Assembly (NCBI GenBank): GCA_016926755.1
Contig: JAFGNZ010000176.1
Location: forward strand, 1-46,952
DNA from: Myxococcaceae bacterium
GTDB taxonomy: Bacteria > Myxococcota > Myxococcia > Myxococcales > Myxococcaceae
Length of the DNA stretch: 46,952 nt
Direction: 5' to 3'
The stretch's first letter is position 1. Each line of letters opens with the position of its first letter. The notes under the pieces were generated by a model, which ran no database searches, was not told where the DNA came from, and saw only the letters and a list, made by a program, of their open reading frames with translations. The translations under genes and the position numbers were made by a program. Shown in pieces: positions 26,740-27,760 of the stretch.

Positions 26740-27735
26740 TTACGGCCAGTAGTCCAGGCGCATCGCCTTGCGTACCTCCGAGAGTGTACGCGACGTCACC
26801 TCACGCGCCCGCTCCGTTCCTTCCTTGAGCAGCCGCATCACCTCCGCCGGATCCCTGGCGTAGTCCTCACGACGCTTGCGGATCGGTCCCAGGAACGCCT
26901 CGAGCACCTCCGCCAACCGCCGCTTCACCACCGTGTCCCCAAGGCCCCCGCGACGGTAGTGATCCTTCAGCCCCTGCACCTTCTCCGTGTCTGGATCGAA
27001 GGCATCCAGGTACGTGAACACCGGGTTGCCCTCCACCGTGCCAGGATCCTCCACCCGCAGGTGCTTGGGATCGGTGAACATGCCGCGCACCTTCTTCGCC
27101 ACCACGTCCGCCGAGTCCGACAGGTAGATCGCGTTGCCCAGCGACTTGCCCATCTTGCTCTGCCCATCCGTGCCCGGCAGGCGCGCTATCTGCGGAACCA
27201 GCGCCTCCGGCTCCACCAGCACCTCACCGTAGAGCCGGTTGAAGCTCCGCACGATCTCCACCGTCTGCTCGATCATCGGCTTCTGATCCTCGCCGACCGG
27301 CACCAGGTGCGCCTTGAACGCCGTGATGTCCGCCGCCTGGCTCACCGGATAGCAGAGAAACCCCGCAGGTACCTGCGCCTCGAAGTCTTTCTGCCGCATC
27401 TCCTCCTTTACCGTCGGGTTGCGCTGCAGCCGCGCCACCGTCACCAGGTTCAGGTAGTACATCGTCAGCTCGGCGAGCTCCGGCAGCATCGACTGCACGC
27501 AGAAGGTGGCCACCTTCGGATCCAGCCCGACCGCCAGGTAGTCCAGCACCACCTCCGTGAGGTTCTGCCGAACCTTCTCCGGGTTGTCCGCGTTGTCCGT
27601 CAGCGCCTGCATGTCAGCCACCAGGACGAACGTCCGGTACTGGTGCTGGAGCTGCACCCGGTTCTTGAGCGAGCCGACGTAGTGCCCCAGGTGCAGCGGG
27701 CCCGTGGGGCGATCGCCAGTGAGAATCGTCTTGAT
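26740..27735 (-). CDS. trpS: Tryptophanyl-tRNA synthetase, apparent AUC start
   Basis: Class Ic synthetase of 331 aa charging tRNA-Trp. The HIGH-like motif is P-L-H-L-G-H-Y and the KMSKS-like loop is K-M-G-K-S. The conserved block [10 protein letters not shown]-type (here [10 protein letters not shown]) and the VEDPG block resemble the TrpRS type of lactic-acid bacteria. The first in-frame ATG/GTG/TTG codon is a GTG at 27657, which would remove the HIGH-like motif. The coding sequence clearly continues upstream for 26 codons ([18 protein letters not shown]) to an ATC at 27735, with GGGAGG five bases ahead (27746-27741). So the gene most likely starts at AUC, or a single base differs from ATG through mutation or error. 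Confidence 0.9.
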
Positions 27736-27740
27736 GGGCG

Positions 27741-27760
27741 CCTCCCAAGCAGAAAGGAGG
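27741..27760 (-). promoter_or_regulatory. Hairpin that can mask the trpS Shine-Dalgarno
   Basis: In the mRNA, CCTCC (27760-27756) can pair with GGAGG (27745-27741) inside the Shine-Dalgarno sequence across a 10-base loop. It could reduce initiation at an already weak AUC codon. The stem is only 5 bp. Confidence 0.3.

Follow-up and report, generated by a model that had tools for sequence, protein, structure and literature searches.

A trpS reading frame that opens without a canonical start codon

The window, by which we mean the whole stretch of DNA analysed (46,952 nucleotides; contig JAFGNZ010000176.1 of a Myxococcaceae bacterium), carries on its minus strand a trpS gene, encoding tryptophanyl-tRNA synthetase (TrpRS), whose first canonical in-frame start codon is found only at codon 27. 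Where, then, does its translation begin? Counted from an ATC codon at 27733..27735, the putative start codon, trpS occupies positions 26740..27735, stop codon included, and encodes 331 residues. The product matched TIGR00233 (tryptophan--tRNA ligase) over residues 2-325 with 254.3 bits, the cut-off being 176.75. Its closest solved structures were those of TrpRS II (2a4m and 1yi8), which we take to be from Deinococcus; the alignment began at residue 4. The window's lineage differs from that likeness in having the enzyme as the sole TrpRS match per genome: one match each was found in the window's own genome (G000) and in two further genomes of the genus (G040 and G041), and the only other match to PF00579 in the window's genome was TyrRS. 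The nitric oxide synthase family PF02898 is linked to TrpRS II. Such a link, prompted here by the likeness to TrpRS II, was rejected, as PF02898 was absent from all eight genomes searched.

An upstream TAA at -87 (27822-27820) bounds the trpS frame, and between this stop codon and codon 27 the window sequence holds no ATG, GTG or TTG in frame. The sequence-only reading had claimed that no such codon lies upstream near the gene and that the first one is the GTG at 27657 (27655..27657, minus strand); both statements agree with the frame. It had also proposed that the 26 codons before this GTG form a TrpRS N-terminus beginning at the ATC, and that a start at the GTG would delete the HIGH-like motif of the synthetase. 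Indeed, HLGH, presumably this motif, forms residues 15-18 (27682..27693, minus strand), ahead of codon 27, and the translated product contains it only when initiation occurs ahead of codon 15. The Shine-Dalgarno sequence GGGAGG (27741..27746, minus strand) is separated from the ATC by the five bases CGCCC, just as had been described. A second-choice start is the ATT at codon 4 (27724..27726, minus strand), 14 bases from the Shine-Dalgarno sequence.

Farther upstream, a possible trpS promoter, CTGACG-18-TAAAGG, was noticed at 27765..27794 on the minus strand, its hexamers picked by eye and its spacing counted. At a matching distance, G040 and G041 have TTGACG-17-TAAACG. A strict consensus promoter scan of the window found none. 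This putative promoter lies 30 to 59 bases upstream and would imply a leader of roughly 20 to 30 bases. RNA structure was considered as a regulator of trpS and rejected, since the structure predicted around the start was not stronger than in shuffled sequences (z = 0.50, 0.22 and 0.91 in the three genomes). All three predicted folds contain a short pairing of GCC with GGC around the AUC, which shows no variation by which it could be tested.

The ATC codon is kept in two further species

Some match to the TrpRS protein was present in 94 of 96 genomes of the family. The genus is represented by seven genomes, including the window's own. Three of these, G000, G040 and G041, hold the present trpS type and no other TrpRS match, the proteins of the latter two being 91% and 89% identical to that of the window; the remaining four (G036-G039) carry a TrpRS type that is 36 to 37% identical to it. 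At E <= 1e-90, the type was found in four of 145 genomes of the order and in the identical four among 195 genomes of the phylum, with no further carriers in either set. The fourth carrier, G007, has a protein of 66% identity, an in-frame ATG eight codons upstream and, in addition, a second, ordinary TrpRS.

All three carriers within the genus have ATC at the start codon, and GGAGG-N5-ATC, with the core of the Shine-Dalgarno sequence, is present in 3/3 genomes that hold the type at 89% identity or more. An ungapped comparison revealed a start region of 33 bases, GGAGGCGCCC followed by ATCAAGACGATTCTCACTGGCGA (27713..27745, minus strand), that is identical in the three genomes and comprises ten bases before the ATC and 23 from the ATC on. 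The base directly before this block differs, and farther upstream the window diverges from G040 and G041. The other two proteins agree with the window TrpRS at 302 and 295 of 331 residues, and fourfold sites match those of the window's gene at 70 of 172 and 67 of 167 positions (41% and 40%); between G040 and G041, 145 of 180 such sites are common (81%). Given this much fourfold divergence, the identical block at the start has persisted in two lineages that are well separated. The sequence-only reading had named a sequencing error or a private mutation of ATG to ATC as the main alternative, to be checked by aligning close relatives. That alignment supports a real non-AUG start and makes the alternative very unlikely, because the ATC is present in G040 and G041 as well. 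G041 is listed at 7% contamination; its trpS nonetheless has neighbours typical of the genus. Behind residue 115, the TrpRS proteins of G040 and G041 (L004 and L005) have 13 residues without counterpart in the window TrpRS.

Codons 1-7 are identical in the three genomes, including the A/T-ending codons ATT and ACT. When the rates, per residue, at which codons agree in all three genomes are taken from trpS itself, their product over these seven codons is 0.0036; a second run of seven identical codons exists once elsewhere in trpS. The other isoleucine codons of the gene are mostly ATC (5/7, 13/14 and 11/12 in the three genomes), so that conservation of the ATC codon taken alone is a weak argument. 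No canonical in-frame start is common to the trpS genes of the three genomes. As read from these sequences, most of the weight lies in the lack of a canonical start in a gene that is conserved, essential and the only one of its kind found.

The gene was probably gained between two neighbours

On its downstream side, trpS is flanked by a peptidase gene (24483..26567, minus strand), presumably of the S46 type, and on the other side by a divergent lipoprotein-like gene (27917..28465, plus strand), named by eye from its N-terminus. In G036-G039 these two genes are directly adjacent, about 300 bases apart; trpS is absent there, and an ATG-start trpS lies elsewhere in the genome. Since the flanks adjoin in these four genomes and the sequence is alike on both sides of the gap, trpS was probably inserted at this place, in an ancestor of the three species. 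Both flanking genes are present beside trpS in G041. The peptidase gene also adjoins trpS in G040, where the lipoprotein-like gene was not found within 5.8 kb on the other side; the short element that adjoins the lipoprotein-like gene is present there. The gene at window positions 28472-29302 was found in neither G040 nor G041. Among the matches listed, the best other trpS genes were 70 to 72% identical and belonged to scattered groups.

The short element beside the lipoprotein-like gene, GTCYGATAA-N4-CGTTATGTAAACT (window 27817-27842, minus strand), is kept in all seven genomes of the genus, including the four that have no trpS at this place, and a search of three genomes found its core a single time in each. 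The window's genome has a second member of the peptidase family (L165, G000:C273:48896-50965), 56% identical, with one in-frame TGA.

Start positions in other TrpRS genes and in infC

Of a longer list of distant trpS loci the best 80 were taken, and 79 were scored; the match of the one dropped begins at residue 30. Read mechanically, the canonical codon closest to the ATC position, at it or on its upstream side, fell between -9 and 0 codons in 79/79 loci, namely at -1 in 58, 0 in 3, -2 in 8, -3 in 7, -5 in 1 and -9 in 2. An ATC at the position of the window's start codon was seen in none of the 79. In 25 of 26 loci examined of the family's native TrpRS type, an ATG stands one codon after this position. 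The exception (L030, in G010) reads ACG in place of the ATG; its match holds an in-frame TAG, so the ACG may be an assembly fault.

The likeness that had been drawn between the trpS start and infC turned out to be apt within the family itself. We examined 38 IF3 loci of the Myxococcaceae (30 best matches, and 8 second copies from a longer list), and infC reads ATC at its apparent start in every one of them, also in the genomes that hold the present trpS type. This ATC is preceded by GGAGG in 30 loci, by GGAG in 7 and by GAGG in 1. An in-frame ATG, GTG or TTG lies farther upstream in 24/38, several of these being a TTG that overlaps the Shine-Dalgarno sequence, so that the ATC starts of infC are inferred as well. 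The infC gene of M. xanthus (dsg) reportedly starts at AUC, a finding ascribed to Cheng et al. in 1994. The second IF3 genes, found in eight genomes (L145, L146, L147 and L153-L157), encode extra N-terminal residues and have ATC and then another isoleucine codon at the expected start.

Non-canonical starts in other bacteria

To our knowledge, few bacterial genes besides infC have AUN starts. A limited literature search found no report of an AUC start on TrpRS or any aminoacyl-tRNA synthetase. The start of infC is ATT in E. coli and ATC in Streptomyces, where sigR has a conserved GTC start that is repressed by IF3 and mis-annotated in public genomes; the GTC start and the effect of IF3 were shown by experiment in Streptomyces (PMC5472188). 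A second study gives AUA as the start of infC in S. aureus and describes extended Shine-Dalgarno motifs at cvfC1 (AUU) and ccpN (AUA) (PMC13009471). There, three non-canonical starts reached ~10% of AUG expression in one medium and the ccpN start up to 30% in another; the AUU start of pcnB is known from a citation within the same source (PMC13009471). A report on B. burgdorferi describes bbe22 pncA (AUU) as annotated too short, missing an N-terminal part needed for activity (PMC13398362). Work with a reconstituted system showed that IF3 reduces initiation at start codons that pair weakly, AUU with a CAU anticodon being one of them (PMC10158994).

Both infC and trpS would have an AUN start after a strong Shine-Dalgarno sequence and encode an essential component of translation. 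The infC product feeds back on its own gene, whereas TrpRS has no role in start selection, and unusual starts of infC occur in several phyla, whereas the AUC of trpS was seen in three species. Like trpS, sigR lies outside infC and would share with it a non-canonical start that is conserved; sigR begins with GTC and encodes a sigma factor, while trpS would begin with ATC, a start read from sequence, and encodes a synthetase. The genes pcnB, bbe22 pncA, cvfC1 and ccpN have AUN starts, as trpS would; none of the four encodes an aminoacyl-tRNA synthetase and none starts at AUC. With no shared canonical start, a strong and well-spaced Shine-Dalgarno sequence and a conserved codon, the putative AUC start of trpS belongs with the known AUN non-canonical starts.

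Alternative explanations for the missing start codon

The position of the start could differ from the ATC in several ways. If the AUU at codon 4 were the start, the protein would lack three residues; such a start would find a precedent in the AUU start of E. coli infC (PMC5472188), and this ATT is kept in all three genomes though it is an uncommon isoleucine codon in trpS. We nevertheless favour the AUC, because its spacing from the Shine-Dalgarno sequence is 5 rather than 14 bases and because the nearest canonical start lies at or before window codon 1 in all 79 scored relatives; the AUU is left with a small share of the probability. Hardly more room, indeed marginally less, is left for upstream starts of each species' own, such as a TTG at -12 in G041, a TTG at -57 in G040 and a near-cognate codon in the window, for instance the CTG at -48. 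All of these codons are in frame, and gene-annotation programs would be likely to pick the TTGs. None of them is common to the genomes, however; the TTG of G041 overlaps the Shine-Dalgarno sequence and that of G040 is the beginning of the putative -35 hexamer, and on these grounds the TTG starts were rejected. Moreover, the upstream sequence of the window is unlike that of G040 and G041, and in all three the G+C content at third positions is lower on the upstream side of the ATC than on the downstream side, least clearly so in G040 (0.75 vs 0.82). A frameshift from an out-of-frame start was rejected too: the window has an out-of-frame TTG at -13, which is without an out-of-frame counterpart in G040 within 90 bases.

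That the window stems from a draft of 409 contigs gives a sequencing error some initial plausibility, yet two other species have the identical ATC, by which an error or private mutation is practically refuted. A decaying trpS that no longer serves as a synthetase would likewise account for the absent canonical start; it is a very remote prospect, as the three genes have no internal stop, retain 302 and 295 of 331 residues at only about 40% fourfold identity and are the only TrpRS match in their genomes. Quite different in standing is the view that the AUC start is real and merely tolerated, a weak start offset by a good Shine-Dalgarno sequence and not regulated through IF3. It contests only the proposed IF3 regulation and leaves the AUC start itself untouched, and we give it not much short of an even chance. 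The perfect, well-spaced Shine-Dalgarno core and the lack of any regulatory structure found speak for it, whereas the AUC has survived in two lineages that differ at many synonymous sites although AUG is one base away, and the action of IF3 on such starts is general (PMC5472188).

Initiation at AUC and its possible control by IF3

The reading we prefer, with a probability of roughly 0.78, is that trpS of this lineage is translated from the AUC at 27735 by fMet-tRNA, positioned by the strong Shine-Dalgarno sequence. GGAGG with its five-base spacing would place the ribosome on the AUC, and fMet-tRNA would pair with it through the first two codon bases. IF3 would repress this start, as it does starts other than AUG, GUG and UUG, and so lower the yield of TrpRS. 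From this repression it follows that TrpRS output should be low for a ribosome site of this kind and inverse to IF3 activity, rising when the latter falls, as for infC. By analogy, expression of trpS is probably reduced and IF3-sensitive. A real regulatory role of the AUC through IF3 is a more doubtful proposition. Equally tentative is the idea that infC and trpS make up a small group under IF3 control, in which the sole TrpRS would rise as IF3 falls, and that the AUC became fixed when the foreign trpS replaced the native gene.

The frequency of near-cognate starts was estimated by comparing 381 kb of G041 with 381 kb of G038, which yielded 163 ORF pairs; in 127 of these, identity reached at least 55%. 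The filter was loosened until the positive control, infC, was recovered. Two of the 127 pairs were then flagged, infC and a CTG twelve codons inside a conserved region; under a stricter version of the screen, 36/127 had no clear common canonical start. With a filter tuned on infC and this many unclear pairs, the screen shows only that near-cognate starts are not common.

Because an ordinary start common to the three genes is absent, gene callers would mark the beginning of trpS wrongly, and the wrong start chosen could vary by genome (codon 27, -57 or -12). An essential enzyme, for which a single copy was found, would depend on an AUN start, with no fallback TrpRS. The genus would also offer a natural swap, a gained AUC-start synthetase in place of the native ATG-start one, in which it becomes testable whether weak starts are selected or tolerated.
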